Positions 28,305-62,875 of a stretch of 64,000 bases of DNA are shown here, one piece after another. The stretch is taken from contig JAJECT010000039.1 of NCBI GenBank assembly GCA_022821845.1, forward strand, positions 1 to 64,000, given 5' to 3'. The stretch is from Rhodothermales bacterium. GTDB taxonomy: Bacteria > Bacteroidota > Rhodothermia > Rhodothermales > VXPQ01. The notes beneath the pieces are model-generated. The model was not told where the DNA came from and searched no databases. It saw nothing but the letters and a program-made list of their open reading frames with translations. The position numbers and the translations under genes were made by a program. Position 1 is the first letter of the stretch; each line of letters begins with the position of its first letter.

Positions 28305-28333
28305 TTGTTTTATTGTTTAAAATGCCGTACACT
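28305..28333 (+). promoter_or_regulatory. Promoter of unit A
   Basis: TTGTTT (28305-28310) and TACACT (28328-28333) are separated by 17 bases within an AT-rich stretch. They lie about 145 bases upstream of the first TBDR start. The spacing matches the unit B promoter, though the sequences are not otherwise alike. Confidence 0.55.
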
Positions 28334-28477
28334 CTATCGGATTTTGTGCGCACTTCACCCGAATACGTTCCACGCACGCGGGACATGATGTTCCACGACT
28401 ATTGCGTGAATTGCGGGGTTGTCGCGCTTTTTCAAGCGTTATTCGCTAACCAACATAAATACCAGAGGGTCATGCAT

Positions 28478-31400
28478 ATGAGACTGGCAAAGCTACTGTT
28501 TACGCTTGCATTGCTTATCCCGGCCACGGCCTGGGCGCAGCAAGGCAAGATCGCTGGTCAGGTAACCGACGGGAACACCGGGGACTCGCTTCCCGGCGTG
28601 AACGTGGTCATCGAGGGCACTACGCAAGGCGCCGTTACCGACGCCGAAGGGTTCTACCACATTCTGAATGTGCGTCCCGGCACGTACAACCTCCAGGCGT
28701 CGTTCATTGGATATACGACTGCGATTCAGCAAGGAATCCACGTGAGCACGGACCTTACGACCACGGTGAACTTCGAGCTGAACGAGGAAACCGTGGGCCT
28801 TGAGGAGGTGGTCGTGGTGGCCGAGCAGCCTATCGTACAGGCGGACGTTTCGGCGAACGTGGCGAACCTGAGCGCCCAGGACTTTCAGGACCTGCCGGTG
28901 GCAGGCATTTCGGAAGTACTGGACTTGCAGGCGGGCATCGAGCCGGGCATGCGCGTGCGTGGCGGCGGCCTCAACGAGGTGGCCTTTATCGTAGACGGCT
29001 TGCAGATGCGCACGGGGCGCCACAACGATCCCATGACCAGCGTCAGCTATACGTCGCTTGAGGAGGTGCAGGTGCAGACGGGCGGGTTCAGCGCGGAGTA
29101 CGGGAACGTGCGTTCCGGCATCGTGAACGTGGCTACGAAAGAGCCTTCCCGCACGGACTACACGGTGGACGCGCTGGTTCGTTACGCGCCGGCTCAGGAC
29201 AAGACCTTTGACGCCTACCATCAGTTGCCGTCCAATTGCAACTATTCCGGCTCTTCCATTCCCGTCGAGTGCGACACCTGGTTTGCGCGCCCGATCCTGG
29301 ACCCGGCGGTTCGGCTTAATGGTTCGGGGGGCGTGTGGGATGCGTACCAGGCCCGGCAGTACAAGCCGTTTCCGGGTTGGCAAGGCATCCTGACCCGGCT
29401 GCATGACGAAGGGTTCGACGTGACCGAGTCGGACATGATCGAGTACTGGCGTTACATGTGGCGCAAGAGCAACGAGATCACGATGCCGGATTACGACGCC
29501 GACATTACGGTTGGCGGTCCGATTCCGGGCGTCAGCCAGTATCTTGGCGACCTTCGCTTCCTTGCGTCGTATCGCGGCACCCAGACGGCCTATTTGTATC
29601 CGCAGGACCGCGAAGCCTATACGGACAATACCTATCAGGTCAAACTGATTTCCAATGTGGCGCCCGGCATGAAAGTGACGGCGCACGCCCTCGGCACCCG
29701 GCAGCGCGGCCAGGTCTGGCAGGAAAATTCGCGCGGCACCGAGATTTGGTCGGGCGACATTCCTGCGTATCCCTGGTGGCAGAACGAAGGCCGCGACGTA
29801 GGCAAGCAGATCTGGGAGATCGACATTCGCGGGGACGAATTGTTTACGGACGGACAGTGGCCCGTCGGCGACATCGATCACGACATGCTGGGCTTGCAGC
29901 TCACGCATACATTGAACCAGAATACGTTCTACGAGGTAGGCCTTCAGCGCATGGCGTCGAACTATCAAACCAGGCTTCCGACGTTGCGCGACGGATCTTT
30001 CGTGTGTTCTTCGTCTGGCACAGGCCCCAATGGCGAAGCCTGCGAGCCATACGAACTCGTTCGCGTTCCCTGGACGGACAACTTCGGCCGCATCAACGAG
30101 GGGTTCAATAGTCTGGTTGGGCAGCAGGACGGCATCATATGCTTCGGCGGCGATTCCGACGTTACCGGAGACGGCGCAGCAACCCCGTACTGCTCCGGTC
30201 AGGAGCCCATGGGCTTCGCCGGTATCGGCGGGAACATCCTGACGGACGAATCGACGGGCGGCCACTGGGTCAAGACCCGCGACACTTCGACCGTTACGGT
30301 GTATACCGGGCGGTTTGACCTGACGAGCCAGCTCAATCGTTTCCTGTTGCTCAAGACGGGCGCCGAGCTGATCTTCAGCGATTACGACATGAACTACGCG
30401 AGCATCAACATTGCCTTGGCGGGCCCGCAATCCGGGGCGCGCTGGCCGTGGGACGGCTCGCCGGTGCAGGGCGCGGCCTATGTGCAGGGTAAACTCGAAT
30501 TCCAGGGGATGATCGCGAACCTCGGCGTACGCCTTGATTACTTCGACCCGAATACGGAATGGTGGGATTACGGATACTACGACGGAATCTTGCGCTTCGA
30601 CCGGGACAAACTGGACGAGGACCTCGATAAAGAATCTGTTTCCTCTCAGTTGGGCGTCAGTCCGCGCGTGGGTATTTCCTTCCCGATTACGACGAACAGC
30701 AAGTTGTACTTCAACTATGGTCACTTCCGCCAGATGATGGATGCCTACGACGTGCTCGGCATTCAGCAGTCCAAGGCGGGCGGCATCGATCAATTGGCGA
30801 ACCCGGAGCATCCGTTGCCCAAGACGGTGGCGTACGAACTGGGCTTCGACCAGAACGTGCTGGACCAGTTCCTCGTCCGTATTTCCGGGTACTACCGGGA
30901 CAACAAGGAAGAAACCCGGACCGTTAATTTCCAGAGCCTGGGCGGCGTTGTGAGTTACAGCACGAAGATGCCGTGGCATTACTCGGATACGCGGGGCGCG
31001 GAGTTCAGCATTTCCAAGAACCGGGGCAAGTGGGTTCAGGGCTTTGCGAACTTCACGTATCAGCAGCGGAAGTCGGGTAACTTCGGGTATTCGAACTTCT
31101 ACGAGAACTCGTTCCAGATGGTGAACTGGCTGCGCACCGCCACGGACTACAGGCAGTCGGCGCCGGTGGCCGAGCCGTTTGCGAATGCAAACTTGCTGGT
31201 GATTACGCCAGAAGGCTTCGGCCCCCAGATCGCGGGCGGGAATCCCTTGGCGAATTTCCGCATCAGCTTCCTTGGCGAATGGCGCAAGGGCGTTGCGTTG
31301 ACTTGGGCGGGCGATTTCTCGGCGAACATTCCGGAAGTGCGCAACAACGTTCGGTATCGCGACTACTGGAACTTCGACCTGCGCTTTACGAAGCACTTTA

Positions 31401-31882
31401 GCGCCGGGCCCACGCGGTTGCAGGTGTTTGCGGACATCGACAATGTCTTCAACCTGCGGCATTTGAACTGGGGCGGCGCTTTTCTCGAACGCCAGGGAGA
31501 CGATCCCGGGGATTACATGCGGTCGCTGCATTTGGCCGAGGATATTTTCGACCAGCTGCCGGAAGGCAGTTCCAAGCCTTACGAATGGGTTCCGGGCGAC
31601 GACAAGCCGGGCGTATTCCGCGACTGGGACGTTGCGTTCCAGCCGATCGAGGCCAAGGCCACGTTGCCGGACGCTCCCGACGAGGGTTTCGAACGAGGCT
31701 GGGTGTATGCGAGCGATACAGGATCGTATCACCGGTGGACAGGCAGCGCCTGGGAGAGCGTTCCCCAGGGCGAACTGGATCAGGTGCTGGAGGACAAGGC
31801 ATACATCGATATGCCGAACCACCGGTTCAACACCTTCCTGAATCCGCGTCGCGTTACGTTCGGCCTGCGGGTAAGCTTCTAA
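28478..31882 (+). CDS. TonB-dependent receptor (unit A, first)
   Basis: This 1134-residue outer-membrane receptor has a signal peptide MRLAKLLFTLALLIPATAWA. A carboxypeptidase-regulatory-like domain (GKIAGQVTD...GVNVVIEGTTQGAVTDAEG, about 20-105) is next. The plug carries VAFIVDGLQM and TGGFSAEYGNVRSGIVNV (about 110-230), and a large beta-barrel follows. The C-terminus ends FGLRVSF as in barrel proteins. AGAGGG supports the ATG at 28478; an ATG two codons earlier is possible. The ligand is unknown; no SusD partner is present. The close paralogue is the unit B gene at 45214-48444, including a Tyr/Trp-rich region just before the end. Confidence 0.9.
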   Translation: MRLAKLLFTLALLIPATAWAQQGKIAGQVTDGNTGDSLPGVNVVIEGTTQGAVTDAEGFYHILNVRPGTYNLQASFIGYTTAIQQGIHVSTDLTTTVNFELNEETVGLEEVVVVAEQPIVQADVSANVANLSAQDFQDLPVAGISEVLDLQAGIEPGMRVRGGGLNEVAFIVDGLQMRTGRHNDPMTSVSYTSLEEVQVQTGGFSAEYGNVRSGIVNVATKEPSRTDYTVDALVRYAPAQDKTFDAYHQLPSNCNYSGSSIPVECDTWFARPILDPAVRLNGSGGVWDAYQARQYKPFPGWQGILTRLHDEGFDVTESDMIEYWRYMWRKSNEITMPDYDADITVGGPIPGVSQYLGDLRFLASYRGTQTAYLYPQDREAYTDNTYQVKLISNVAPGMKVTAHALGTRQRGQVWQENSRGTEIWSGDIPAYPWWQNEGRDVGKQIWEIDIRGDELFTDGQWPVGDIDHDMLGLQLTHTLNQNTFYEVGLQRMASNYQTRLPTLRDGSFVCSSSGTGPNGEACEPYELVRVPWTDNFGRINEGFNSLVGQQDGIICFGGDSDVTGDGAATPYCSGQEPMGFAGIGGNILTDESTGGHWVKTRDTSTVTVYTGRFDLTSQLNRFLLLKTGAELIFSDYDMNYASINIALAGPQSGARWPWDGSPVQGAAYVQGKLEFQGMIANLGVRLDYFDPNTEWWDYGYYDGILRFDRDKLDEDLDKESVSSQLGVSPRVGISFPITTNSKLYFNYGHFRQMMDAYDVLGIQQSKAGGIDQLANPEHPLPKTVAYELGFDQNVLDQFLVRISGYYRDNKEETRTVNFQSLGGVVSYSTKMPWHYSDTRGAEFSISKNRGKWVQGFANFTYQQRKSGNFGYSNFYENSFQMVNWLRTATDYRQSAPVAEPFANANLLVITPEGFGPQIAGGNPLANFRISFLGEWRKGVALTWAGDFSANIPEVRNNVRYRDYWNFDLRFTKHFSAGPTRLQVFADIDNVFNLRHLNWGGAFLERQGDDPGDYMRSLHLAEDIFDQLPEGSSKPYEWVPGDDKPGVFRDWDVAFQPIEAKATLPDAPDEGFERGWVYASDTGSYHRWTGSAWESVPQGELDQVLEDKAYIDMPNHRFNTFLNPRRVTFGLRVSF

Positions 31883-31893
31883 ACGAAATGGAT

Positions 31894-31927
31894 TCTCCCC
31901 GGGGATCGGCGACGATTCCCGGGGAGA
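31894..31927 (+). promoter_or_regulatory. Intercistronic hairpin after TBDR A1
   Basis: TCTCCCCGGGGA and TTCCCGGGGAGA pair around a ten-base loop, with 11 of 12 positions complementary. No T-run follows, so it is more likely a stability/processing element or partial attenuator than a full terminator. Confidence 0.55.
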
Positions 31928-31958
31928 CCGGCAGTTATTCTTAATAAGAAACAAAACC

Positions 31959-34295
31959 ATGATGAAAGCCAGCTACAAGCTTCTTGCGGGCGTTATCCTT
32001 GCGTTTGCGTTCGGCGCGCTGGGCGTTGGTACGGCCACGGCCCAGTTCACCGTTACGTGGATCGACATTGGAGATTACCAGGATGGTTATCCTCAGGTCG
32101 GGGTCAAGAACGAAACGTCGAACTTGATGGCCTACCCGGCCATTCACCGGAATTCAACGCATGAGCGTTCCGGGGCCTTCTGGATCGGCGCCAAGGATTG
32201 GACGGATCCCAACGGGCAGGCCTATCCGTATTACACGTCGCGCATCGGTCCCCGCGACCCCGGCGTCGACTTTGCTTTTCCCGTGGAGGACAAGCTGATC
32301 GCCAAGTGGGAAGATTCGGAAGTTACGGTGGATGGCGTCGCCTCGTTTGACCGGGTAGCCGTCGTGAACGAGGTTGATCCCAACCTGCCTGCCGACCGGG
32401 TTCAGGAATCCGTCTGGAACATGAACATCGGCGTTACCGTCCGGAAACGCGCGTATGCCTGGAGCAACCCGTTTCATGACGAATACCACATTGTCGAGTA
32501 TGTCTTCACGAATACGGGGAATACGGACGACGATCCCGAAATCGAGTTGCAGGGCCAGAGCCTGAAGGATACGTACTTCTACTGGATCCATCGCTGGCGC
32601 GGTACGGATACGGCGGCGTGGATCGGCGACGGCGGCCAGGTCTGGGGCAAGTACAGCATGGTAGACGCCGTGGGCGACGGCCATGCCGATTATCCCCTCG
32701 ACATTACGGCGTATTATCTGTGGAAGGGCTACGAGCCGGATTATTCCGCGGGCAACTGGGACAACCTTGGGGCGCCGATTCTTGAAGCACACTGGTCCCA
32801 GGCTGCGGGGGATACGGTAGGTCGCCTTGCCGGGGCTTATTTTGATGGGGAAATGCCTTTGTACGCGCCGAATTCCAGCAGCGACGCCTCCTTCGACCGC
32901 ATGGTGCAGCCGCACACGATCGGCTTCATGGACCAGGACGAGAAACTGACGGCGGCGGGCGCGGCGCACCTTGAATATTACGAGGACGGCATTCTTACGC
33001 GCGAGGATCACACGCCGGCGCCGGAGGGATGCTCGTCGGCTGTGTCCCGTACGCGCATGTGTCCCATGTGGGCGGATCGCATCGAATCGGACGGCAATTT
33101 CTGGGAGCCGTCGAACAATCCGAGCCAGGGTCGCCAGGGCGGGCATGCCGCTACGGCGGCGTACGGTCCCTACCAAATGGAATTCGGCGACGAGGTGCGT
33201 ATTCTCTTCGTTCGTTCGGTGGGCGGCCTCGACTTCGACGCGGCGCTTGCGATCGGTCGGGAGTTCAAACTGACAGGCCGGAATCGCGAGGCCGTAATAC
33301 GGTACGACGCCAACGGCGACGGGGTGATCAAGGACGACGTGGAGTATAGTTTCCACGATGCCTACGACATAGGCCTCGAAGCCATGACGAAGAACCAGTG
33401 GGTGCTTACGGCGAGGGATTCGCTCTTCAAGAATTTCGTCACCGCCCGGGCCGTATACGAAGCGTCGAACGACCTTACGACGTACCCGGTCGCGCAGCCT
33501 CCCTTGCCGCCGACGACGTTTTCTGTGAACGGCAAGCCTGGCCAGATCGAACTTGCGTGGGAGCCGTCTGCGGGCGGTCCGTCGCGCGTTGGCTGGGAAG
33601 TGTACCGTACGGATCGGAATGTATGGTGGAGCCCCGCGTACGACTATGTCCGCGAGGCGGACAATTTGATGGGCGCGCTCAGCAGCCTGGACGACGAGGC
33701 GAATATGGGCCGGCTCCGTCGAAGGGAAGACGAGATGCCGTACACCTGTTTGCGCGGCATGCGCCCCGATTGCGAAGGCCCCGCCCTGGATGCGGGGGCT
33801 ACCGCGTTCAACGACGAGACGGCCATTCGCGGCACGGATTATTACTACTATCTCGTTGCGGTGGGCGAGGAACTCCCGAACGATCCGAGCGGGCTTACGG
33901 GCGTTCCCGGAGGTGGCGTACGGTTGCGCAGCAGCCGGTACTTTACGCAGACCTACCAGCCCACGAACCTGAAGCGTCCGCCGTTTGGCGAAACCGGGAC
34001 GATCGCGGATGTCCGCGTGGTGCCGAATCCGGTCAATCTTGGTTCCGACCAGTCCATTCGTTTCACGAAGGAGGACGAAGTCGCCTTCTTTAATATTCCG
34101 GGCGAATGTACGATCAGGATTTATTCGGAGATCGGCGAACTCATTGAGACCATCGAACATACGGACGGAAGCGGCGACGAGAAGTGGAACCTCACCACCC
34201 GCGCGCGGCAGCTTCTGGTGAGCGGTATTTATATCGCGGTGGTCGAGACGCCGACAGGCGAGCGCGTATTCCGGAAATTCACGGTCATTCGGTAA
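31959..34295 (+). CDS. Secreted T9SS-type protein (unit A)
   Basis: This 778-residue protein has an N-terminal signal sequence (LLAGVILAFAFGALGVGTATA). A long region then carries FWIGAKDW, AWSNPFHDEYHIVEYVFTNTG and an acidic DANGDGVIKDD calcium-type loop. An Fn3-like segment follows (PPTTFSVNGKPGQIELAWEP). The end is a FlgD/T9SS-like domain (VRVVPNPVNL, FFNIPGECTIRIYSEIGELI, VSGIYIAVVETPTGE), so secretion through the type IX system is likely. It lies between a TBDR and a PorV-like barrel, as does the paralogue 48498-50744. Function is unknown; it may be a surface substrate-binding partner replacing SusD. Confidence 0.75.
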   Translation: MMKASYKLLAGVILAFAFGALGVGTATAQFTVTWIDIGDYQDGYPQVGVKNETSNLMAYPAIHRNSTHERSGAFWIGAKDWTDPNGQAYPYYTSRIGPRDPGVDFAFPVEDKLIAKWEDSEVTVDGVASFDRVAVVNEVDPNLPADRVQESVWNMNIGVTVRKRAYAWSNPFHDEYHIVEYVFTNTGNTDDDPEIELQGQSLKDTYFYWIHRWRGTDTAAWIGDGGQVWGKYSMVDAVGDGHADYPLDITAYYLWKGYEPDYSAGNWDNLGAPILEAHWSQAAGDTVGRLAGAYFDGEMPLYAPNSSSDASFDRMVQPHTIGFMDQDEKLTAAGAAHLEYYEDGILTREDHTPAPEGCSSAVSRTRMCPMWADRIESDGNFWEPSNNPSQGRQGGHAATAAYGPYQMEFGDEVRILFVRSVGGLDFDAALAIGREFKLTGRNREAVIRYDANGDGVIKDDVEYSFHDAYDIGLEAMTKNQWVLTARDSLFKNFVTARAVYEASNDLTTYPVAQPPLPPTTFSVNGKPGQIELAWEPSAGGPSRVGWEVYRTDRNVWWSPAYDYVREADNLMGALSSLDDEANMGRLRRREDEMPYTCLRGMRPDCEGPALDAGATAFNDETAIRGTDYYYYLVAVGEELPNDPSGLTGVPGGGVRLRSSRYFTQTYQPTNLKRPPFGETGTIADVRVVPNPVNLGSDQSIRFTKEDEVAFFNIPGECTIRIYSEIGELIETIEHTDGSGDEKWNLTTRARQLLVSGIYIAVVETPTGERVFRKFTVIR

Positions 34296-34382: not shown

Positions 34383-35471
34383 ATGAAAAGGAGTATTGCT
34401 ACCACATGCCTCCTCGTAGCCATCGGGTTGCTCACGGCCCCTTCGACATTCGCTCAAACGGGCATTGCGGGTCCAGACGACGAGGTAGAAACCGCCAAGC
34501 GCGGTCAAACCGGCTTCAAATTTCTTTCGGAATCCGTCGACGCGCGGGCAACCGCCATGGGCGGCGCCGTTACGTCGTCTACGCTGGGTTCCTCCACGGC
34601 GATGTTCTACAATCCCGCCTCCATGGCGCGCATGGACGGTAATTTCAGCGCGGGCTTCGGCATTATGAGCTACATCGTGGACATCCAGTACAACGCGGCG
34701 AGCGTGGCGTACCGCCCGGGCGGCGGAAACTACGGCGTGGTGGGCCTCACGTTCATGAACGTGGACTACGGCGGAGAGTTTTTCGGAACCGTTCGCGCGG
34801 AGAACGAGCAGGGCTACGTCGAGACCGGCGAGTATAGTCCGACAGCGCTTGCTATCGGCCTGGGATATGCGCGGTCGTTCACGGACCGCTTTTCCGTAGG
34901 CGCCCATATCAAGTACACCCAGCAGGACTTGGGTTCGTTCGCCAAAGCGCGCGCAGAGGACGCCCCTATGGCGCTGGATGACGGCACGGCCGCTACGTTC
35001 GAGGATTATGCGCTGAATACCATTGCGGTCGATTTCGGCATCCTGTACGACACCGGCTTCGAAAGCCTTACCATCGCGATGAACACGCGGAATTTCTCGC
35101 GGGAGCTGGTGTACGAACGGGAGCGTTTCGAGCTTCCGCTGACGTTCCAGATTGGTATCTCGATGGATGTCATCGATCTCACCGCGCTGGACCCGAACAT
35201 GCACTCGTTCCTCGTTTCCGTGGACGCGCAGCGTCCGCGCGACTTTGCCGAGCATGTGAAATTCGGCGGCGAGTACACGATCATGAATATCTTTTCCCTG
35301 CGGGGCGGTTTGGGACGCGCCTTCGTGGGAGACGATCATGAAGAAGGGTTCAGTCTTGGAGCCGGTTTGAAATACGATGCTTCGGGCATTGGATTCGGCG
35401 TGGATTATGCCTATACGGATTTCGGTATTTTCGACACGGTCCAGCGGTTCGCCGTTAACCTCACCTTCTGA
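34383..35471 (+). CDS. PorV/PorQ-like outer-membrane barrel (unit A)
   Basis: This 362-residue protein has a signal peptide (MKRSIATTCLLVAIGLLTAPSTFA). It carries the PorV/PorQ (UPF0164) signature: GQTGFKFLSESVDARATAMGG, then SSTAMFYNPASMA, then repeated amphipathic strands to a terminal FAVNLTF. PorV in T9SS carries cargo from the translocon to the surface attachment complex. Its position directly after a T9SS-type cargo gene supports a dedicated role for that protein. The gene end is overlapped by the most plausible start of the next CRTAC1 gene. Confidence 0.8.
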   Translation: MKRSIATTCLLVAIGLLTAPSTFAQTGIAGPDDEVETAKRGQTGFKFLSESVDARATAMGGAVTSSTLGSSTAMFYNPASMARMDGNFSAGFGIMSYIVDIQYNAASVAYRPGGGNYGVVGLTFMNVDYGGEFFGTVRAENEQGYVETGEYSPTALAIGLGYARSFTDRFSVGAHIKYTQQDLGSFAKARAEDAPMALDDGTAATFEDYALNTIAVDFGILYDTGFESLTIAMNTRNFSRELVYERERFELPLTFQIGISMDVIDLTALDPNMHSFLVSVDAQRPRDFAEHVKFGGEYTIMNIFSLRGGLGRAFVGDDHEEGFSLGAGLKYDASGIGFGVDYAYTDFGIFDTVQRFAVNLTF

Positions 35472-37194
35472 TCCGGTCCCCGGTTTTTGTTCGACAGGTT
35501 GGCTGGGCGTTGTCCTGGTCTGGTGCATTGCGGGTTCGTTGAGCGCTTGTTCGCTTTCCGGCTCGCGGTCGGCAGACGAGGGGGGCGTCCGGCTTCCTGT
35601 TTTTACAAACGTGGCGGAAGAGGCTGGACTGGGCGGTTTCCGGCACGTCAATGGCGCAGCCGGGGACAAGTGGTATCCCGAGCAAATGGGATCCGGGGGA
35701 GGCTTTTTCGATTACGACGGCGACGGCTGGATCGATATTTTGCTTCTGGGCGGGGGCGACTGGGATCCCCAAACGCCGGTGCAAGCCGTGTTTCTGTACC
35801 GGAATAACGGCGACGGCACGTTCGCCGACGCGACGGAAGCGGCGGGCCTGGCGGACGTGGAGGGGTATACTATCGGGATGACCGCCGCCGACTACGACAA
35901 CGACGGGGACCCGGACCTCTACATTACCTGTCTGGAGGAGAATTTTTTCTTTCGCAACGACGGGGGGCGGTTCGTGGAGGCCACGCGCGAGGCGGGGCTG
36001 GACGGAAACGACATCTGGAGCAGTTCGGCTATTTTCTTCGATGCGGACCGGGACGGGGACGCCGATTTGTATGTAGCGAACTATGTGGACTGGACGCCGG
36101 AAACGGATATTTTTTGCCCGTCGGGCGGCGCGGTCAAGCTGTATTGCCATCCCGCCGTGTATACCGGGGTGCAGAGCCGGTACTACGTAAACGACGGGAA
36201 CGGCGCATTCGCGGACCGTACGGAAGCGGCCGGTTTTATGCCGACGCTGGGCAAGTCGCTGGGGGTGGCCGAACTGGATTTCAATTTCGACGGATGGCCG
36301 GACCTGGCCGTGGCGAACGACGGGGAGGGGGATTTGCTTTTCCGAAACAATGCGGACGGCACGTTCTCTGATATCGGCGTGCCGAGCGGCTTTGCGTTCA
36401 GCGAACACGGAGAAGCGCGCGCCGGGATGGGGATCGACGCCGGGATTACGGACAGTACGGGCCGCTATTCGCTGTACGTCGGCAACTTTGCAGGGGAAAT
36501 GATCGGGGTGTACCGCCACGAAGAGGGCGAATCGTTTACAGGCCGGGCCGGGCGGTCGCGCATTGGTTTTCCGGGCCTGCTGTCCCTTACGTTCGGACTC
36601 TTTTTGCTGGATGTGGACATGGATACGGACCTGGACCTGTTTGTGGCCAATGGGCATGTGCATCCCGACAGAACCGGCGAGAACGACCGCATCCGCTACC
36701 GGCAGCCCGCACAGCTTTTTCTGAACCGGGGGGACGGCGTGTTCGACGAATTTACGCCGGGGGCGGGCGTATGGACCCACTTGCTTGTGGGGCGCGGAGC
36801 GGCCTACGCGGATTATGATCGGGACGGGGATCAGGACATTCTTGTTACCGAGAACGGGGGGGCAGTCCATCTCTGGCGCAACGACACGGCGCCCGGCCGG
36901 TATCTGCGCGTGCATGTCGCGGGGCGGACAAGCAATCGGGACGGTCTGGGCGCCCGCGTCACGGCGCGATTGGGCGAATTGACCATGGAGCGGCGCATCC
37001 GGACCGGGTCCAGTTATCTTGCGCAATCGGAGCCGGTGGCGGCCTTTGGTTTGGGCAGCCAGGAGGCGGTCGATTCCCTGACCGTATACTGGCCCAGCGG
37101 CCTCGTAGAGCGGTTCGGCGAGGTGGCGGGTGGCCAGGACGTGCTGCTTGCAGAGGGCTCGGGGACGCTGCAACCTGTTCGGGTCGATCCATGA
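35407..37194 (+). CDS. CRTAC1-family lipoprotein, FG-GAP + ASPIC/UnbV (unit A, first)
   Basis: This protein of about 595 residues has a lipobox-like AGSLSAC after a hydrophobic stretch. FG-GAP/VCBS repeats follow, with calcium loops FDYDGDGWIDILLLGG, DYDNDGDPDLYIT and DFNFDGWPDLAVAN. It ends in the ASPIC/UnbV domain (RTGSSYLAQSEPVAAFGLG, YWPSGLVERF). The only in-frame ATG before the lipobox, at 35407, lies inside the PorV-like gene, giving a 65-base overlap; a non-ATG start nearer the lipobox is possible. Such proteins form seven-bladed propellers and are usually exported. Enzymatic role unknown. Confidence 0.8.
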   Translation: MPIRISVFSTRSSGSPLTSPSDPVPGFCSTGWLGVVLVWCIAGSLSACSLSGSRSADEGGVRLPVFTNVAEEAGLGGFRHVNGAAGDKWYPEQMGSGGGFFDYDGDGWIDILLLGGGDWDPQTPVQAVFLYRNNGDGTFADATEAAGLADVEGYTIGMTAADYDNDGDPDLYITCLEENFFFRNDGGRFVEATREAGLDGNDIWSSSAIFFDADRDGDADLYVANYVDWTPETDIFCPSGGAVKLYCHPAVYTGVQSRYYVNDGNGAFADRTEAAGFMPTLGKSLGVAELDFNFDGWPDLAVANDGEGDLLFRNNADGTFSDIGVPSGFAFSEHGEARAGMGIDAGITDSTGRYSLYVGNFAGEMIGVYRHEEGESFTGRAGRSRIGFPGLLSLTFGLFLLDVDMDTDLDLFVANGHVHPDRTGENDRIRYRQPAQLFLNRGDGVFDEFTPGAGVWTHLLVGRGAAYADYDRDGDQDILVTENGGAVHLWRNDTAPGRYLRVHVAGRTSNRDGLGARVTARLGELTMERRIRTGSSYLAQSEPVAAFGLGSQEAVDSLTVYWPSGLVERFGEVAGGQDVLLAEGSGTLQPVRVDP

Positions 37195-45072: not shown

Positions 45073-45101
45073 TTGCAATTGTTTTTCATAAAGCCTATCA
45101 T
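45073..45101 (+). promoter_or_regulatory. Promoter of unit B
   Basis: TTGCAA (45073-45078) and TATCAT (45096-45101) are separated by 17 bases in the AT-rich part of the 209-base gap between units. A leader of about 110 bases precedes the ATG at 45214. Confidence 0.55.
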
Positions 45102-55019: not shown

Positions 55020-56761
55020 TCGTTCTTCGTCTCCTGATTCCGGCGCTTGCGGGCGCGCTCCTTGCTTTGGGCGGGTGCGGCGCGGACGGCGAGCGCCTTG
55101 CCGACGAGGCCTCTGCTGCGGCGGAGCCGTCGGAGGGGCTGCGTTTTACGCATGTTACGGAGGAGGCCGGGCTGGGCGCGTTTCGGCATGTTACCGGGGC
55201 CTTTGGGGAAATGTGGTTTCCCGAGACGATGGGCGCGGGCGCGGGTTTTCTGGATTACGACGGGGACGGATGGCAGGATATTGCGCTGGTCGCGGGGGGC
55301 GCGTGGCCGGGTCGGGGAGACGTCGCGCCGCCCGCCGTGCGCCTGTATCGAAACGAAGGCGGCTATTTCAGGGAAGTTACCGGGGAAACCGGTCTGGCCA
55401 ACGTACATGCGTACGGGATGGGCCTCGCCATTGCCGACTACGACAACGACGGGGACCCGGATATTTTCCTGACGGCCCTCGGGCGGAACCTGCTGCTAAG
55501 AAACGAACGGTCGGGAGGCCCCGGCGGACAGGTTTCGTTCAGCGACGCGACGCAGGCAGCGGGGCTTGCGGACGACGAGGCCTGGAGTACGTCCGCCATC
55601 TTTTTCGACGCAGACCTGGATGGGCAGCTCGATTTGTACGTAGCGAATTATGTCGCCTGGTCCCCGGAGACCGATATGTGGTGCACCATGAACGGGCGCG
55701 ACAAAACCTACTGTACGCCCAAATTGTACGATGGCGTCCCCAGCCGCTTTTACCGAAACGAGGGCGGCGTTTTCGCGGACCGGACCGCCGAGGCCGGATT
55801 CTTGCCCGCCCCCGGCAAGACGCTGGGCGCCGCCGAATGGGATTTCAACGAAGATGGCTGGCCGGACCTGGTGGCGGCGAACGATACGCAGCGGGATTTG
55901 CTGTATATGAACGACGGAACCGGCGCATTCGTGGAAACGGGGGTGGCCAGCGGCGTCGCCTACGACGCGGACGGCCAGGCGCGCGCGGGGATGGGGGTGG
56001 ACGTGGGCGTGCTGGACCGTACGGGCGCGCCCTCGGTGGTCGTTGGGCATTTCGCCAACGAACCGGCGGGGCTGTATCGCCAGATGGCGCCCGGCGTTTT
56101 CGTGGATCGGGCGGCCCAGTCGCAGGTGGGGTTGCCTTCGCTCCCCACGCTTACCTTCGGGCTATGCCTTTTCGACGCCGACCTGGATGGCGATCTGGAT
56201 ATTTTCCTGGCGAACGGGCATATTTCGCCGGACGTGGAAGGGACTGCGGAGGGCTTGTCGTATCGGCAGGCGCCCCAGCTTTTCCTGAACGACGGGGACG
56301 GTTTTTTTTCCGAATATGCGTTCTCCCTTGCCGCGCCGATGGTGGCCCGCGGGGCGGCGCTGGCCGATTACGACAGGGATGGGGACGAGGATGTGCTGGT
56401 TACGGAGAATGCCGGACCCGTGCACCTGTTGCGTAACGAGACGCAAGGGGGCGCCTGGTTGCGCGTGCGCCTCGAAGGCGTTCGGGGCGCCCGGGACGCT
56501 TTGGGCGCGCAGGTAACGGCGGTCGCGGGCGCGCGGCGGATGACGCGGCGCGTACGGACCGGCTCAAGCTATCTCGTTTCTTCGGAGAAGGCGCTGACGT
56601 TCGGACTGGGCGGGGCCGCGCAGGCGGATACGCTGATTGTCGAGTGGCCCGGCGGCGACGCGACGCGGCATGCGAACATACCCGCCGGACGCGAGGTACA
56701 TATTGTCGAGGGGTCGGGCATTGTGGAAACCGTTACGCCGGCGGGTCGCGACCGTCCCTGA
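55016..56761 (+). CDS. CRTAC1-family lipoprotein (unit B, second; GTG start)
   Basis: This 581-residue lipoprotein starts at GTG 55016 within the preceding stop (GTGA). The signal and lipobox read LLIPALAGALLALGGCGADG. Propeller loops are FLDYDGDGWQDIALVAGG, DYDNDGDPDIFLT, FDADLDGQLDLYVANY and DFNEDGWPDLVAAN. The ASPIC/UnbV end has RRVRTGSSYLVSSEKALTFGLG. The unusual start and overlap indicate translational coupling to the TPR gene. Confidence 0.83.
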   Translation: MIVLRLLIPALAGALLALGGCGADGERLADEASAAAEPSEGLRFTHVTEEAGLGAFRHVTGAFGEMWFPETMGAGAGFLDYDGDGWQDIALVAGGAWPGRGDVAPPAVRLYRNEGGYFREVTGETGLANVHAYGMGLAIADYDNDGDPDIFLTALGRNLLLRNERSGGPGGQVSFSDATQAAGLADDEAWSTSAIFFDADLDGQLDLYVANYVAWSPETDMWCTMNGRDKTYCTPKLYDGVPSRFYRNEGGVFADRTAEAGFLPAPGKTLGAAEWDFNEDGWPDLVAANDTQRDLLYMNDGTGAFVETGVASGVAYDADGQARAGMGVDVGVLDRTGAPSVVVGHFANEPAGLYRQMAPGVFVDRAAQSQVGLPSLPTLTFGLCLFDADLDGDLDIFLANGHISPDVEGTAEGLSYRQAPQLFLNDGDGFFSEYAFSLAAPMVARGAALADYDRDGDEDVLVTENAGPVHLLRNETQGGAWLRVRLEGVRGARDALGAQVTAVAGARRMTRRVRTGSSYLVSSEKALTFGLGGAAQADTLIVEWPGGDATRHANIPAGREVHIVEGSGIVETVTPAGRDRP

Positions 56762-56793: not shown

Positions 56794-56948
56794 TGTGCCG
56801 ACCCGGGCGTTTGGGCCAGGCACAGGCGGGCAAGCGTACGCAAATGCGGTAATGCAGTATGCCTATCCTTTTCTTATACGAAATATCGTACGGCAAGGTT
56901 ACGTTTGCGGGATACGCTCGTCAAAATCGCTTCGCCCGGCGCGTCGCC

Positions 56949-58115
56949 ATGGCCCTGAAAGCCGTTATGCCTCAATCGTTGAAACCAGCGGAAAAAGCCG
57001 CAGATTCGGCGCCTTGCGGGCTGCGTCGGCGTATGCTTGCGCCGGCGTGCTTCGCGGCGGCGCTTGCATGGGCCGGGTGCGGCGCGCCGCCCGAGACGCC
57101 GGCGGAACGCTTGCAATCCGCAGACGAGGAAGTCCGCCGCTTGCTTGTGGAAGCGCGGGCGGAAGCCGAGGCGGGGCGGTACCCGGAGGCGCTTGCGCTG
57201 ACGGACCGCTTGCTGAATCGCGCTCCCGACTTGCCGGAAGCCTACCTGCTGCTGGGGAACATTCGGATGCGCGCGTATCAGCTGGCGCCAGCGGACGAAG
57301 CGTTTGCCCGCGCGGTGGCCCTGGACCCGTATTTGCGCGACGGTTGGTTTCGGCGGGGGCATGTCGCATTCGAAGAGGGGCGCTACAGCGAGGCGATCCG
57401 GCGGTATCGGCTTCAGCGGGAAGCCATCCTGTCTTCTCCGGCGTCTGTGCGGGCGTTTTATCGGCGGACGGACGCCGCCGCGTTGTCCCGGACCTGGGCG
57501 CAGACGGGGCGCGCGTACGAGCTGCTGAACCTTCCCGACAGCGCGGCGTGGGCATACGGGGAAGCGCTTGCGCAGGATTCGACCCATGCGCAGGTTCATG
57601 CCTGGCTGGCCGAATTGCATGACGAGGCGGGGCGGACGGAAAAGGCGCTGCCGCATGCGCGGGCGGCCTGGGCGCAGGATCGGGAACAGGCGGATTTTGC
57701 GTATCGGCTGGGTGCGTTATTGCTCAAAACCGGCGACGCGGCGCGCGCGTTGCCCTTGCTGGAGCGCGCCGCGCGCGAGAAACCCTACGAGTCTTCGTTT
57801 CGGTACAACTACGGACGCGCGTTGATTGCGCTGGGCCAGATTGAAGAAGGGCAGCGGCATGTGGACGCTACGGAAGCGCTGGAGGAACTGGACAACCAGA
57901 TCGGCATGGCCCGCGCAGCCGCGGCGTATTATCCCGACGATCCGGCGCGGTGGCGCGCGCTGGCCCGCTGGTTTGCGCAAGCCGGACGCGAAACCGAACG
58001 GCGACAGGCGCTGGAGATAGCCCGGGCCGCTGCCGTTCGGCAACGCGCAGCGGGCAAGACGCCGGAGGGCGTTCCTGTCGAATCGCCGCCCGCATCCGAC
58101 GCTGAAACCCGATAA
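56949..58115 (+). CDS. TPR-repeat lipoprotein (unit B, second)
   Basis: This 388-residue protein has a signal and lipobox (FAAALAWAGCGAPPE), then about eight TPRs including RAPDLPEAYLLLGNIRMRAYQ, DPYLRDGWFRRGHVAFEEGRY, DSAAWAYGEAL, WLAELHDEAGR and YESSFRYNYGRALIALG. It is the most divergent of the four TPR proteins. The start at ATG 56949 is used because upstream in-frame sequence lacks signal-peptide character. It is followed by another TPR gene after four bases. Confidence 0.78.
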   Translation: MALKAVMPQSLKPAEKAADSAPCGLRRRMLAPACFAAALAWAGCGAPPETPAERLQSADEEVRRLLVEARAEAEAGRYPEALALTDRLLNRAPDLPEAYLLLGNIRMRAYQLAPADEAFARAVALDPYLRDGWFRRGHVAFEEGRYSEAIRRYRLQREAILSSPASVRAFYRRTDAAALSRTWAQTGRAYELLNLPDSAAWAYGEALAQDSTHAQVHAWLAELHDEAGRTEKALPHARAAWAQDREQADFAYRLGALLLKTGDAARALPLLERAAREKPYESSFRYNYGRALIALGQIEEGQRHVDATEALEELDNQIGMARAAAAYYPDDPARWRALARWFAQAGRETERRQALEIARAAAVRQRAAGKTPEGVPVESPPASDAETR

Positions 58116-58119
58116 CGCC

Positions 58120-59481
58120 ATGCGCAAAAACGCTTTCCTGTGTGCGATTCGCGGCGGCGGGCGGCGGCTTGCCTGCGCCTCGTCGTCTCTCAAGTCCTCT
58201 CCGCCGATCCGGGTCAAGACGGGTTTGCGGGGGACGCTATGCCTGCCCCTGCTTGCCCTGCTGTGCCTGGCGTGGGTCGGGGGGTGCGCAAACGAACCGC
58301 GCCATCAGGAAGATATGGAAGCCCCGGATGCGCCCGGCCTGCGGGATGCGCAACCGATGTCCCCTGCGGCCAGCCGTTTCCTTCGGCTGGGCAGCGAAGC
58401 CCTGAGCCGGAGCGACTTCGCGCAAGCCTTCGCTTTCGCGGACAGCGCGGCTGCGGCGGCCCCGGAACTGGCGGACATTCCGTTTTTGCGCGGCCGCATT
58501 TACGCCGGACTGCACCGGCTGGACAAGGCGGATTCCGCGTACCGGGCCGTCCTGGCGATTCGTCCGTCGTATCCGGGGGTCTGGAACAACCTGGGCAATA
58601 CGGCCTGGCTCCGGCAGGAGTACGGAGAATCGGTGGCGCGCTACCGCCGCGAACTGGCGATGGCCCCCGACCCGCGCCCCTGGCTGGGGATGGCCCGCGC
58701 CTACATCGAACTGGGCGAGACGGACAGCGCCCGCCATGCTTTCGGCGAGGCGCTGGCGCTGGACAGCACGTTTGCGCAGGCCCATTTCGGGGTGGCGTTG
58801 CTCATGGACGATTTGGGGGATTTCGAGGGCGCGCTCCATAGCGCCCGCCGCGCGCTGGCGCATGCCCCCGATAATCTCGAATATCGATACCATACCGCTT
58901 CGTACCTTGTCAAACTGGGGCGGTGGGAAGAGGCGTTGGCTCCGCTGGAAGCTGTTGCGCAGGCGTGGCCGTGGCATCAGGGCGCGCATTACAACCTGGG
59001 CCAGGCGCTGATGCGTCTGGGCCGGGCGGACGAAGCGGAAGCGATGCAGCAGTACGCCGAGGAACTTCGTACGCTCCAGGCGCAAATTACGAACCAGACC
59101 ACTGCGTCCCGGACCTATGCGGAAGACCCCTACGCGCATGCGGGCCTGGGCGCGTTATTGCGGCAGGCCCGCCGATACGACGAAGCCATGAAAGCCTACG
59201 GCGTAGCGATTTATCTGGACCCCGGGAATGCCGATTTTCGAAACAATGTGGCTGTGCTGCATTTGTTGCAGGGCGACACCCTGTCCGCGATTCGATCATT
59301 CGAGCGTATGGCGCAGGCGGACGCCGCCAATGTCCACGCCCTGATCAACCTGGGCAGTTTGTACGCCCTGTCGGGGGATTCGGACCCTGCGCGGCGGGCC
59401 TGGGAAGCCGCCTTGCGCATCGAACCGGACAATGCCATGGCGCGCCGCTCGCTGGCTCGCCTGGCCGCTTCCGGGCCATGA
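58120..59481 (+). CDS. TPR-repeat lipoprotein (unit B, third)
   Basis: This 453-residue protein has a long N-terminal region, a hydrophobic stretch and lipobox LLALLCLAWVGGCANEP, then about ten TPRs. Family words include APELADIPFLRGRIYAGLHRLD, PSYPGVWNNLGNTAWLRQEYGE, DSARHAFGEAL, PDNLEYRYHTASYLVKLG and PWHQGAHYNLGQALMRLG. Its stop overlaps the second TBDR of unit B by ATGA. The close link to both TBDR and CRTAC1 genes suggests a shared assembly. Confidence 0.8.
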   Translation: MRKNAFLCAIRGGGRRLACASSSLKSSPPIRVKTGLRGTLCLPLLALLCLAWVGGCANEPRHQEDMEAPDAPGLRDAQPMSPAASRFLRLGSEALSRSDFAQAFAFADSAAAAAPELADIPFLRGRIYAGLHRLDKADSAYRAVLAIRPSYPGVWNNLGNTAWLRQEYGESVARYRRELAMAPDPRPWLGMARAYIELGETDSARHAFGEALALDSTFAQAHFGVALLMDDLGDFEGALHSARRALAHAPDNLEYRYHTASYLVKLGRWEEALAPLEAVAQAWPWHQGAHYNLGQALMRLGRADEAEAMQQYAEELRTLQAQITNQTTASRTYAEDPYAHAGLGALLRQARRYDEAMKAYGVAIYLDPGNADFRNNVAVLHLLQGDTLSAIRSFERMAQADAANVHALINLGSLYALSGDSDPARRAWEAALRIEPDNAMARRSLARLAASGP

Positions 59482-61763
59482 CGTTGCGGGGCCTGCATAG
59501 CGCGCATGTCCGCCTGTGGGCGCTGGCGGTCCTCGCGGGGATCGTCGGATTGGCTCCGGGCCTGGCGCCCGACGCGCAGGCGCAATCCGCCTCCGTTCGG
59601 GGTTTCGTTACGACAGAGCCGGGCGGAGAATCGCTTCAGGGCGTCAATGTGTCCATCGACAACCTGACCGGCGCGCTGAAGGGCGCAGCGTCCAACGAAG
59701 ACGGATTTTTTCTTATCGGACGCATTTCCCCCGGTCGCTACGCGTTGCAGGCTTCCTTCGTGGGGTTCGTTACGTATGTGGATACGCTGGATATAGCCGC
59801 CGACGACCGCCTGCTGGTCAATATCGTCCTTCGGGAAGACGCCCTCGCCATGGAGGGCATTTCCGTCGAGGCGGAGCGCGAGGACGGCGCGGCGCGCGTG
59901 ACGGCCGGGCGGCAAACCATCCGCCCGGAAGATATCGACCTGATTCCGTCGCCGGACGTGTCGGGGGACCTGGTGTCCTATCTTTCCACCATACCCAGCG
60001 TCGTGCTGATGGGGGATCGGGGCGGGCAGGTGTTCATTCGGGGCGGCGAGCCTACGCAAAACCTGACGCTGCTGGACGGGATCGAGATTTACCAGCCCTT
60101 CCACGTGCTGGGTTTTTATTCGGCGTTCTCTTCCGAAATCGTCAGTCGGGCCGATGTGTACGCCGGGGGATTCGGGGCGGAATTTTCGGGCAGAATCTCC
60201 TCGGTCATCGATGTGCATTCCCGCAACGGCAACAAGCGCGATTTCCATGCCTCCGCGGCCCTCTCGCCGTTTACCAGCGCGGGGCATCTCGAAGGGCCGC
60301 TTTTGCCGGGCCGCATTTCTTTTCTGGGGGCCGCCCGGTATTCGATGCTGGACGGGTTGGCTTCCCGGTACGTGTCCGCGCCGCTTCCCTACGTATTCGA
60401 CGACGCGTTTGGTAAAATTCATGCGCGCCTCGGGCCGAATCGCCAGCTCTCCGTAACGGGACTGAGGACGTTTGACCGGGGTACGCTTACGCCCACCGAC
60501 GACCCCTTGCGGCGAAGCGACGAGGTCAGCTGGCGCAACACGGCGCTTGGCGTCCGCTACCTTTCCGCGCCCCGCATCCTTCCGATCCTGAGCGAGGTGC
60601 TCGTGTCCGTTTCTCGCCTCGAGAGTTCCTTTGGGCCGCGCGGGGAGCCGACCCGGATTTCCGATCTCGAATTGTTCAATCTGGCCGTCAATATGACGAA
60701 TTTCGCCCAGCGTTCGGAGGTCAAGTGGGGGTTTTTCCTGCGTACGCCCCTTACGGAAACGGCGCTGGGCGGGTTGTTTCAGAACCTTATGATCGGGCGG
60801 GGCGCGCCCACGAACATAGGCGCGTACATTCAGCCGGAAATATACGCGGGCGGCGGGCTCTACGTCCGCCCCGGGCTCACCGTGCAAACGATGGGCAACA
60901 CGGGCGACTATTTCGAACCCCGGCTGCGCCTGCGCCTGCAGCGCGGCATTCACGAATGGAGCGCGGCGGCGGGCGTTTACAGGCAGGTTACGGTGGGCCT
61001 GAGCGACCGCCGCGACGCCACCAACATTTTTACCGCGTGGGTGCAAACGCCTTCCAGCGAGGCCATGCGCTCCATGCATGCGCTGCTTGGCTACCGGGTC
61101 GAACCTGCCGCCTGGCTGGAATGCTCCATCGAGGGGTTTTACAAGAACATGGACCACATTTTCATTGGGGAATGGACCGCGTTTCCGGGCTTTACCACGC
61201 GCTTGCAAGAGGCCCACGGCGCCGCGTACGGGTTCGATTTGCGGCTGGAAGTGCGTCGCCCCCGTTTTTACGGATTTGTGAATTACGGGCTGTCTTCTAC
61301 CCGCTACGAAATCGATCCGGCGAGTCCGGCGGTGAACAATCCCGGGCGGTTTCGCCCGCCCCACGACCGGCGCCACCAGGTGAATGTGCTGGGCAAGGCG
61401 GCGGTATACGGTTTCGACATAAGCGCCCGGTGGCAATTCGGCTCCGGATTGCCGTATACGCCCGTCTCGGGGTTCGACGGGTTCGTGTTGATGGATGGCC
61501 CCGTCAACGTCCGCAACGTCCGCGGATTTCCCCGCGTCATCTACGAAAGCATTCCGTACCAGGGTACGCTTCCGACGTATCACCGGCTGGACGTTACCGT
61601 GGAACGGGCCTTCGATCTGCCCGCCGGGGTGGAAATGACCATACAGGCCGGCGTGATGAACGCCTATGACCGGGCGAACCTCTTTACGCTGGATTTGCTT
61701 ACGGCCCGCCGCACCGATCAATTGCCCCTTGTTCCCATCGCGGGCCTGAAGGTCCAGTTTTAG
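59478..61763 (+). CDS. TonB-dependent receptor (unit B, second)
   Basis: This 761-residue outer-membrane receptor starts within the TPR stop (ATGA). The signal (LWALAVLAGIVGLAPGLAPDAQA) precedes a regulatory-like domain (RGFVTTEPGGESLQGVNVSI, KGAASNEDGFFLIG). The plug has VFIRGGEPTQNLTLLDGIE and DVYAGGFGAEFSGRISSVID. The barrel ends VPIAGLKVQF. It matches the unit A gene 41697-44048 over its whole length, including FRPPHDRRHQ. A DUF4249-like lipoprotein follows after two bases. Confidence 0.88.
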   Translation: MTLRGLHSAHVRLWALAVLAGIVGLAPGLAPDAQAQSASVRGFVTTEPGGESLQGVNVSIDNLTGALKGAASNEDGFFLIGRISPGRYALQASFVGFVTYVDTLDIAADDRLLVNIVLREDALAMEGISVEAEREDGAARVTAGRQTIRPEDIDLIPSPDVSGDLVSYLSTIPSVVLMGDRGGQVFIRGGEPTQNLTLLDGIEIYQPFHVLGFYSAFSSEIVSRADVYAGGFGAEFSGRISSVIDVHSRNGNKRDFHASAALSPFTSAGHLEGPLLPGRISFLGAARYSMLDGLASRYVSAPLPYVFDDAFGKIHARLGPNRQLSVTGLRTFDRGTLTPTDDPLRRSDEVSWRNTALGVRYLSAPRILPILSEVLVSVSRLESSFGPRGEPTRISDLELFNLAVNMTNFAQRSEVKWGFFLRTPLTETALGGLFQNLMIGRGAPTNIGAYIQPEIYAGGGLYVRPGLTVQTMGNTGDYFEPRLRLRLQRGIHEWSAAAGVYRQVTVGLSDRRDATNIFTAWVQTPSSEAMRSMHALLGYRVEPAAWLECSIEGFYKNMDHIFIGEWTAFPGFTTRLQEAHGAAYGFDLRLEVRRPRFYGFVNYGLSSTRYEIDPASPAVNNPGRFRPPHDRRHQVNVLGKAAVYGFDISARWQFGSGLPYTPVSGFDGFVLMDGPVNVRNVRGFPRVIYESIPYQGTLPTYHRLDVTVERAFDLPAGVEMTIQAGVMNAYDRANLFTLDLLTARRTDQLPLVPIAGLKVQF

Positions 61764-61765
61764 CT

Positions 61766-62875
61766 ATGCCAGTTGCAGATATGATTGCGAAGCGCCTGCG
61801 AAAGAAATGGCTTGTCTGGCTTCTTCCGGCGGTTATGCTGCCGGTTCTGCTCCTTTCGACCGCTGGCTGCGAGGAAAGCGTGGACGCCCTTACCGGGACC
61901 GATATTCCCTTTACGATCTGGGGTTTTCTGGATTCCGCCGCCGACACGCAATACGTTCGCGTCTTCGAGGTGGCGGACGAACTGATCCCCGACCGGGAGG
62001 CCGGGATCGACGCCCGCGTATTTTCCACGCATCTTGCGACGGGCAAGCGCCTGGAATGGACCTACGAGCGCGTGCATTTCGACAGTTTGATCTCCGGACA
62101 TTTCTTCATGGCGCCTTTCCGGCCGGAATACGAGGCGCGGTATTTGCTGGAAGTGGTTCGTTCGGACGGCGAAACGGCGCGCGTCGAATTGACCGTGCCG
62201 CCCGCCGCGCAGTTTACGCTGGAAAGCGGCGCGTCCAGCGTACAGATTCCTGTCTTTATCGACGGAGACGTGCCGAACCTCATCGGGCTGCGCGTAACGT
62301 ACCACGCCATCAATGTGCCTCCTCCGCAAGCCTGGCCGCAGGGATCCCCGGTGGCCCCCGCCGTGCAGTTGCCGGTGATCGTTTCGTACGACGACCGGGT
62401 CGAACGCATCCCCGGAGGCTGGCGTTTCACGATAGATATAGCGGGGGATTTCGAGATTGTCCGGGCGGCCTACCAGATCAATTGCCTGATTACCGATCCG
62501 GAAGAAAGCGCGCCGGACATATGGCTTCGCAAGGTGGAATTCTCGGGCCTGCTGGCGGATTCGTCCTGGTCGCCTCCCGGCCGGGTGTTCGACGCGAACC
62601 TGCTTGCGGTGCCGGGCACGTTTTCCAACGTGCAGAACGGCTACGGCTTTTTCGGCGCCGGGGAGGGCATAGGCCTGGAATGGACTCCTTCGACGGAAAC
62701 GAGTCTTCAGGCCGGGTATAATTTCCTGCCCCGGTGCACGGGCCTGACGCCTCGCAACGTGCCGGAGTGCCATAACCCCCCGGAGCCGTGCGTGAGCGAA
62801 ATTTTTCAGGGGATCGAAGGATTTGCGCAGGGAAAGAGCGGAAACGTATTGCATCCGAGCGATAAACGTCGTTAA
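61766..62875 (+). CDS. DUF4249-like outer-membrane lipoprotein (unit B)
   Basis: This 369-residue lipoprotein has an N-terminal hydrophobic stretch and lipobox LLLSTAGCEES, then GTDIPFTIWGFLDSAADTQYVRVFEV, which parallels the unit A protein (GTDVPYSIYGVLSPQLDSQWV). It has VELTVPPAAQF and a NGYGFFGAGEGIGLEW end. The C-terminal extension holds four Cys not found in the unit A copy. It is expected to partner the preceding TBDR. Confidence 0.65.
   Translation: MPVADMIAKRLRKKWLVWLLPAVMLPVLLLSTAGCEESVDALTGTDIPFTIWGFLDSAADTQYVRVFEVADELIPDREAGIDARVFSTHLATGKRLEWTYERVHFDSLISGHFFMAPFRPEYEARYLLEVVRSDGETARVELTVPPAAQFTLESGASSVQIPVFIDGDVPNLIGLRVTYHAINVPPPQAWPQGSPVAPAVQLPVIVSYDDRVERIPGGWRFTIDIAGDFEIVRAAYQINCLITDPEESAPDIWLRKVEFSGLLADSSWSPPGRVFDANLLAVPGTFSNVQNGYGFFGAGEGIGLEWTPSTETSLQAGYNFLPRCTGLTPRNVPECHNPPEPCVSEIFQGIEGFAQGKSGNVLHPSDKRR

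Follow-up and report, generated by a model that had tools for sequence, protein, structure and literature searches.

The window analysed here is a stretch of 64,000 nucleotides from a Rhodothermales bacterium (contig JAJECT010000039.1, C11 in our numbering), the 2.8-Mb genome of which is 96% complete and belongs to the same order as Rhodothermus. Between positions 28478 and 62875 it carries 19 same-strand genes that are arranged in two blocks, unit A and unit B (Table 1). Both units start with the genes of a TonB-dependent receptor (TBDR1), a secreted protein (CARGO) and an outer-membrane barrel (PORV), and both end with a second TonB-dependent receptor (TBDR2) and a DUF4249-like lipoprotein. 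The middle part of unit A consists of two genes for CRTAC1-type lipoproteins, one for a lipoprotein with tetratricopeptide repeats (TPR) and one for an alpha/beta hydrolase; that of unit B has the order CRTAC1, TPR, CRTAC1, TPR, TPR and thus contains three TPR genes versus one in unit A. Gene content, order and strand agree, by profile searches and by the positions of the open reading frames (ORFs), with those of the original prediction, as do the hydrolase-like gene of A and the additional TPR genes of B by their family matches. Hydrolase genes related to A7 are also found near the units of families f15 and f12.

Table 1. Features of units A and B (window coordinates; scores in bits).
Feature	Position	Strand	Remarks
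A1 TBDR1	28478..31882	+	PF13715 81.7, PF07715 34.4; CarboxypepD_reg-like domain N-terminal, then Plug
A1 start ATGAGACTGGC	28478	+	
A2 CARGO	31959..34295	+	secreted; beta-supersandwich, Fn3 and divergent T9SS type A C-terminal domain (predicted)
A3 PORV	34383..35471	+	PorV/PorQ-family outer-membrane barrel; NF033709 175.3
A4 CRTAC1-type FG-GAP/ASPIC lipoprotein	35407..37194	+	PF13517 112.6, PF07593 60.7; overlaps A3, start codon uncertain
A5 CRTAC1-type lipoprotein	37191..38963	+	PF13517 136.3, PF07593 60.4
A6 TPR lipoprotein	39011..40246	+	PF07719 128.5; lipobox LAGC
A7 secreted alpha/beta hydrolase	40287..41636	+	PF00561 42.2
A8 TBDR2	41697..44048	+	PF07715 38.0, PF13620 63.4
A9 DUF4249-like lipoprotein	44045..45004	+	PF14054 16.2, under cut-off; CEEDV after lipobox
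Sigma-70-like site before unit B, TTGCAA-17-TATCAT	45073..45101	+	not above shuffled background
B1 TBDR1	45214..48444	+	PF13715 76.4, PF07715 39.8
B2 CARGO	48498..50744	+	PorZ C-terminal-like match, E 9e-5
B3 PORV	50826..51869	+	NF033709 172.7
B4 CRTAC1-type lipoprotein	51940..53682	+	PF07593 76.6; start 51886 or 51940
B5 TPR lipoprotein	53754..55019	+	PF07719 109.1
B6 CRTAC1-type lipoprotein	55016..56761	+	PF07593 56.6
B7 TPR lipoprotein	56859..58115	+	PF14559 59.5
B8 TPR lipoprotein	58120..59481	+	PF07719 115.1
B9 TBDR2	59478..61763	+	PF07715 34.9
B10 DUF4249-like lipoprotein	61766..62875	+	PF14054 18.7, under cut-off; CEESV
Terminator-like hairpin after unit B	62885..62908	+	10-pair stem, then T-rich tail

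The overlaps between genes were confirmed as well: ATGA stop/start overlaps join A4 to A5, A8 to A9 and B8 to B9, a GTGA overlap joins B5 to B6, and the remaining same-strand gaps within the units do not exceed about 100 bp. The 17-bp-spaced promoters that had been assigned to both units fared less well. The site before unit B is present, but shuffled sequence contains sites of this kind at least as often; the candidate of unit A (TTGTTT-17-TACACT) falls under the scan threshold, and inspection by eye revealed no evident conservation of the region upstream of unit A in sister species. Given the lack of an excess over shuffles, the promoter consensus was dropped as evidence. Immediately downstream of unit B lies a strong terminator-like hairpin; none was seen between A and B.

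TBDR1, CARGO and PORV constitute a trio that is conserved across the phylum and often stands alone. CARGO is present in 56 of 60 related genomes at E <= 0.001, the weakest matches spanning part of the protein only, and, at E <= 1e-30, in 64 of the 296 genomes of our phylum sample (about a fifth). At 20 loci from other families or classes of the phylum TBDR1 precedes CARGO without exception, and PORV follows in 19 of them; the remaining locus is cut off by the end of its contig. In a genome of family f9 (G034), CARGO is repeated in tandem, with two copies at locus L054 and three at L094, and the CARGO gene of L049 (6194-9668) is interrupted by about 1 kb with an ORF that resembles a transposase by eye.

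No Pfam family matched CARGO. Its AlphaFold2 model (pLDDT 81.5, pTM 0.83) predicts an N-terminal beta-supersandwich like the one with which enzymes of the GH116, GH94 and GH15 types begin (Z about 17, 17.5 by VIA-align, for GH116/GH94-type domains over 250-290 residues at 3.3-4.4 A), together with an Fn3 domain and a C-terminal domain resembling PorZ (Foldseek 5m11). The predicted secondary structure cannot accommodate the catalytic helical barrel that these enzymes possess and therefore suggests that CARGO functions in binding rather than in hydrolysis. Both PORV proteins exceed the cut-off of the PorV/PorQ family model NF033709 (90 bits); an assignment to PorV, PorQ or PorV2 proper was rejected, the best equivalog score being 92 bits and thus under the cut-offs (250 and 220 bits for NF033710 and NF033711). 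All four TonB receptors (A1, A8, B1 and B9) carry a Plug domain with 34.4-39.8 bits, above the cut-off of 23.9. TBDR1 could not be assigned to SusC/RagA, for TIGR04056 (cut-off 368 bits) gave 71.1 bits with A1 and 75.4 bits with B1, and the N-terminal 120-140 residues alone align. Likewise, a SusCD pair was rejected, since none of the proteins of the units matched a SusD family, whereas the positive control, locus L203, matches PF07980.

The locus had been described as tandemly duplicated. The counterparts of A and B are homologous throughout (33-56% identity by BLASTP, E from 2e-46 to 0), with 43% identity over 1160 columns for TBDR1, 34% over 806 columns for CARGO, 48% for PORV, 48-56% for CRTAC1, 40% for TPR, 47% for TBDR2 and 33% for the DUF4249-like protein. 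A tree of CARGO sequences, in which the window's genus is represented by two sister genomes (G002 and G004) with units matching those of the window, has three main parts. Clade I comprises unit A of the genus and families f9, f12 and f15; clade II comprises unit B, families f7, f8 and f9 and both Rhodothermus copies; clade III comprises trios from throughout the phylum, among them the third one of the window's own genome, on contig C29. In the CRTAC1 tree, A4 clusters with the CRTAC1 gene that comes first in the units of f9, f12 and f15, A5 with the one that comes second in those of f9 and f15, and B4 and B6 with CRTAC1 genes of the f6 and f7 units. Both trees agree in that genes of the same position and the same unit type cluster across families. 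Since A and B fall into different clades for CARGO as well as for CRTAC1, a recent tandem duplication is ruled out, and what lies at the locus is the adjacency of two deep paralogous units. By this phylogenetic evidence A and B appear to be two operon types of ancient origin, each inherited as a block, that stand side by side. The adjacent pair of Rhodothermus consists of two clade II units, and side-by-side placement therefore probably arose more than once.

CRTAC1 is cartilage acidic protein 1, a human cartilage protein; for bacterial CRTAC1 proteins we know of no function. The CRTAC1-type proteins studied here contain FG-GAP repeats and an ASPIC domain above cut-off as well as 4-5 DxDxDG calcium-type motifs each, and the predicted structure of A4 superimposes on mouse CRTAC1 (9etn) with Z 40.4 over 454 residues. 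The next matches include propellers that bind or convert sugars, those of PVL lectin and aldos-2-ulose dehydratase; a relation to the latter was rejected, as it exists at the level of the fold alone and the PDB scan gave no sequence match. In Acidobacteria, two ORFs with a CRTAC1-type propeller and TPR segments (L140:1799-5701 and L134:2782-5172) are weak candidates for fusions. A lipobox was detected in 62 of 70 CRTAC1 and in 45 of 52 TPR proteins. An acidic start after the lipid cysteine marks surface lipoproteins in other Bacteroidota. Such a start is present in the DUF4249-like proteins (on average 2.75 acidic residues at positions +2 to +5, n=4) and absent from the CRTAC1 and TPR proteins (0.73 and 0.67), which favours a surface placement of the former and makes a periplasm-facing orientation more likely than a surface one for the latter.

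CRTAC1 and TPR genes are joined to the trio mainly in the order of Rhodothermus. A CRTAC1 gene stands beside 22 of the 24 determinable trios of CARGO clades I and II versus one of 24 in clade III, and for TPR genes the respective numbers are 22 of 24 and two of 24; the Fisher P of 4e-10 is too small given shared descent, but the split itself is plain. In the 60 related genomes, 56 of 83 full CRTAC1 genes are located within 20 kb downstream of CARGO on the same strand, and in seven closed or near-closed genomes this is true for 16 of 21 versus an expectation of roughly 1-4%. At 650 bits or more, the CRTAC1 subfamily to which the window's proteins belong occurs in 18 of the 296 phylum genomes. 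All 18 are members of the window's order, and CARGO is present in 17 of them (P = 0.004 for the association among the 31 listed genomes of the order, shared descent not corrected). A scan of 85,000 species genomes, from which 80 CRTAC1 loci were kept, extends the partnership of CRTAC1 and TPR beyond this order: among the matches listed, at least 49 loci hold a TPR gene in the same stretch, often directly adjacent, in Poribacteria, Acidobacteria, Planctomycetota, Gemmatimonadota, Latescibacterota and others, and only one (L100, Neomarinimicrobiota) has TBDR1, CARGO and PORV followed by CRTAC1 and TPR.

The DUF4249-like genes directly adjoin a TonB receptor gene, with an overlap in A8/A9 and a 2-bp gap in B9/B10, and a DUF4249 protein is reportedly known as partner of a TonB transporter from work of Price et al. 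in 2023. All seven orthologues searched match DUF4249 and no other family (best E 7e-6). TBDR2 and DUF4249-like genes occur as a pair near CRTAC1/TPR genes in families f1, f7, f8, f9, f12 and f14, the strand not always being the same. They probably represent a separate transporter-lid pairing of the kind already described for BT2172-BT2173 (cited in PMC11003636). The block hence is composed of three modules, namely TBDR1-CARGO-PORV, CRTAC1-TPR and TBDR2-DUF4249. The view of the locus as one linked outer-membrane system thus holds with respect to linkage, which the co-occurrence survey supports, but not with respect to a fixed set: one fixed six-family system is ruled out, as the trio often occurs alone, CRTAC1-TPR pairs are found in many phyla with no trio in the flanks covered, and TBDR2-DUF4249 is separate.

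Of the ten ASPIC proteins encoded by the window's own genome, nine are located no more than 9 kb from the plug domain of a TonB receptor (five of six loci, P 0.0015). A large double-propeller CRTAC1 adjoins a SusC-SusD pair in R. marinus (TIGR04056 849.9 bits, SusD_RagB 117 bits), and on contig C21 of the window's own genome a large CRTAC1 is located beside a full SusC match, followed by a lipoprotein that is SusD-like by eye. Large CRTAC1 proteins near SusC-SusD-type genes were seen in L203 and L065 (R. marinus), L060 (C21) and L059 (C29); they have one ASPIC domain flanked on both sides by FG-GAP repeats. A tetrahaem cytochrome c554-TPR gene adjoins free-standing CRTAC1 genes and one CRTAC1 gene within an R. 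marinus unit; such proteins of 900-1000 amino acids, with four CxxCH motifs in those counted, are encoded beside CRTAC1 in L057 (C20), L090, L077, L038 and L209, and L057 also adjoins genes for a penicillin amidase and a sulfatase.

Several genes of sugar metabolism surround the units. A GMC oxidoreductase gene is found near the block in families f1 and f3: it directly follows block B in three genomes of the window's genus and lies within about 10 kb of the block in five Rhodothermus genomes. After block B it occupies 62876-64000 (plus strand) of the window and L197:77-1858, and the next gene encodes a xylose-isomerase-like protein. A 3-keto-disaccharide hydrolase is encoded near the block in five Rhodothermus genomes and was rejected as a general link, as it was seen in Rhodothermus only. 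One R. marinus unit is followed by genes for this hydrolase, xylose-isomerase-like proteins, Gfo/Idh oxidoreductases and a nucleoside-symporter-like permease; Gfo/Idh genes are found near the block in several families and inside the f14 unit. Rhamnose, tagaturonate and inositol genes stand upstream of block A: window positions 13610-20972 encode L-rhamnose isomerase, rhamnulokinase, the RhaD aldolase-dehydrogenase and a LutB-like lactate oxidation protein, and positions 21965-26905 (minus strand) tagaturonate epimerase (UxaE, 426 bits), 5-dehydro-2-deoxygluconokinase (IolC) and methylmalonate-semialdehyde dehydrogenase (IolA). They are a weak clue to the substrate and were discarded as such; in a sister species, the part of the upstream region that was searched gave no RhaD homologue. 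A 1414-amino-acid ORF at 2332-6573 (minus strand) has a type IX secretion system (T9SS) sorting domain above the Pfam cut-off (PF18962, 31.8 bits); apart from this, it shows no clear known domain.

We assume with moderate confidence that each unit is a SusCD-like capture-and-uptake system for glycosides or oligosaccharides that is built from non-SusCD parts. CARGO would cross the outer membrane by the T9SS and would be held by its own PorV-family barrel. It would sit on TBDR1 as the substrate-binding surface subunit, in the place that SusD has on SusC, and TBDR1 would import the substrate with TonB energy. TBDR2 and the surface-type DUF4249-like lipoprotein would serve as a second, classical transporter-lid pair. 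CRTAC1, presumably a seven-bladed propeller with calcium-type motifs, and the TPR lipoproteins would be partners with an anchor in the outer membrane, where they would bind the incoming molecule and act as a scaffold for accessory enzymes. A glycoside or oligosaccharide is the most likely substrate because of the predicted fold of CARGO, the linkage of CRTAC1 paralogues to SusCD and the genes of sugar oxidation that flank the units.

Several points weigh against this proposal. The assignment of CARGO as a T9SS cargo, made from the start, is supported by its type A-like C-terminal domain and by the T9SS translocon protein SprA encoded in the same genome (G000, 1877 bits), but the sorting domain (TIGR04183) reaches only 16.4 bits in A2 and 13.7 bits in B2, under the curated cut-off of 23. 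The lid function of CARGO has its position and its modelled fold as sole basis, and a shared fold is no proof of function. The DUF4249-like proteins of the window score 16-19 bits, under the Pfam cut-off of 28.5 (PF14054), and the proposed distribution of the lipoproteins between surface and periplasm leans on a sequence rule from other Bacteroidota. CRTAC1-TPR pairs also exist in phyla where no trio was present in the fetched flanks and therefore need not act in uptake. No catalytic carbohydrate-active enzyme was found inside the units; the GMC and 3-keto-disaccharide hydrolase links hold for one or two families, and both genes are absent near the f8, f12, f14 and f15 units.

Alternatively, the units could serve surface assembly or adhesion, the trio secreting and displaying an adhesin-like CARGO without any nutrient import, the CRTAC1 and TPR proteins being periplasmic assembly factors and TBDR1 a docking or signalling receptor. 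Shuttle proteins guide T9SS cargo to its surface location (PMC12618676). The Fn3 domain of CARGO, the relationship of CRTAC1 propellers to integrin alpha propellers and the fact that TPR proteins often are assembly factors are in line with this explanation. However, uptake better explains the presence of two TonB-dependent receptors in each unit, the linkage of CRTAC1 paralogues to SusCD, the flanking sugar-metabolism genes and the carbohydrate-enzyme-like fold, and we regard an adhesion system as unlikely.

More far-reaching, and rather improbable in our opinion, is the idea that the units represent a new class of uptake machine, in which a lid delivered by type IX secretion with a private PorV-like barrel would capture the glycoside, and CRTAC1-TPR pairs, in some lineages with the tetrahaem cytochrome, would receive it in the periplasm and couple import to oxidation. 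If true, this coupling would be the first role for bacterial CRTAC1 proteins. In a redox-linked periplasmic system, another alternative, the CRTAC1-TPR pairs would partner multihaem cytochromes and take part in oxidising sugars or other donors, and the transporters would supply the substrate. The cytochrome c554-TPR genes directly beside CRTAC1 in families f1, f3, f7 and f8 and within the R. marinus unit, the GMC oxidoreductases flanking the f1 and f3 blocks, and CRTAC1-annotated genes that adjoin hydrazine-synthase homologues in other bacteria (PMC12758564) point in this direction. Neither A nor B contains a match to a cytochrome family, however, and the four CRTAC1 proteins of the window lack CxxCH motifs, so that we consider a primarily redox-linked function doubtful. 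A chance neighbourhood of independent transporter pairs, secreted proteins and lipoproteins would account for the separate occurrence of each module, but is hardly compatible with the strand- and order-specific co-location, the clade-restricted co-inheritance, the matching trees and the occurrence of the block in two phyla, and is very improbable.

A description of the whole block was not found in the open-licence literature on CRTAC1/UnbV, PorV and TonB receptors, and, to judge from the searchable literature, the TBDR1-CARGO-PORV trio has not been described before. CARGO matches neither SusD nor any other described lid family, and its linkage, together with CRTAC1, to TonB-dependent uptake provides a concrete hypothesis. 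Two units of this kind are present in the cultivated strain Rhodothermus marinus DSM 4252, at about 2,025,825-2,036,820 and 2,039,342-2,053,117 of the chromosome, which makes the question testable.

Compared with SusC-SusD importers, an uptake system of the proposed type would be similar in logic, not in membership. TBDR1 is a barrel with a CarboxypepD_reg-like N-terminus encoded beside the gene of a secreted surface protein, and CRTAC1-type proteins also adjoin true SusCD pairs in these genomes; the partner of TBDR1, however, is of the T9SS type and has a PorV-family barrel of its own. TBDR2 and the DUF4249-like lipoprotein encoded immediately after it, which begins with the acidic residues typical of surface lipoproteins, correspond to the BT2172-BT2173 pair, but the pair of the window closes a long CRTAC1/TPR block, and its DUF4249 score is under the Pfam cut-off. 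In the T9SS, cargo is bound by shuttles, PorV for type A and PorP/SprF for type B cargo (PMC5562754 and PMC12618676). CARGO and PORV resemble such a couple by the type A-like C-terminal domain of the former and by the adjacent PorV-family gene, and differ in that PORV is not PorV, PorQ or PorV2 by the equivalog models and in their association with a TonB receptor. The CRTAC1 proteins of the window finally share the seven-bladed FG-GAP propeller and the ASPIC domain with mouse CRTAC1, whereas the bacterial proteins are lipoproteins, are 21-23% identical to it and are paired with TPR lipoproteins.

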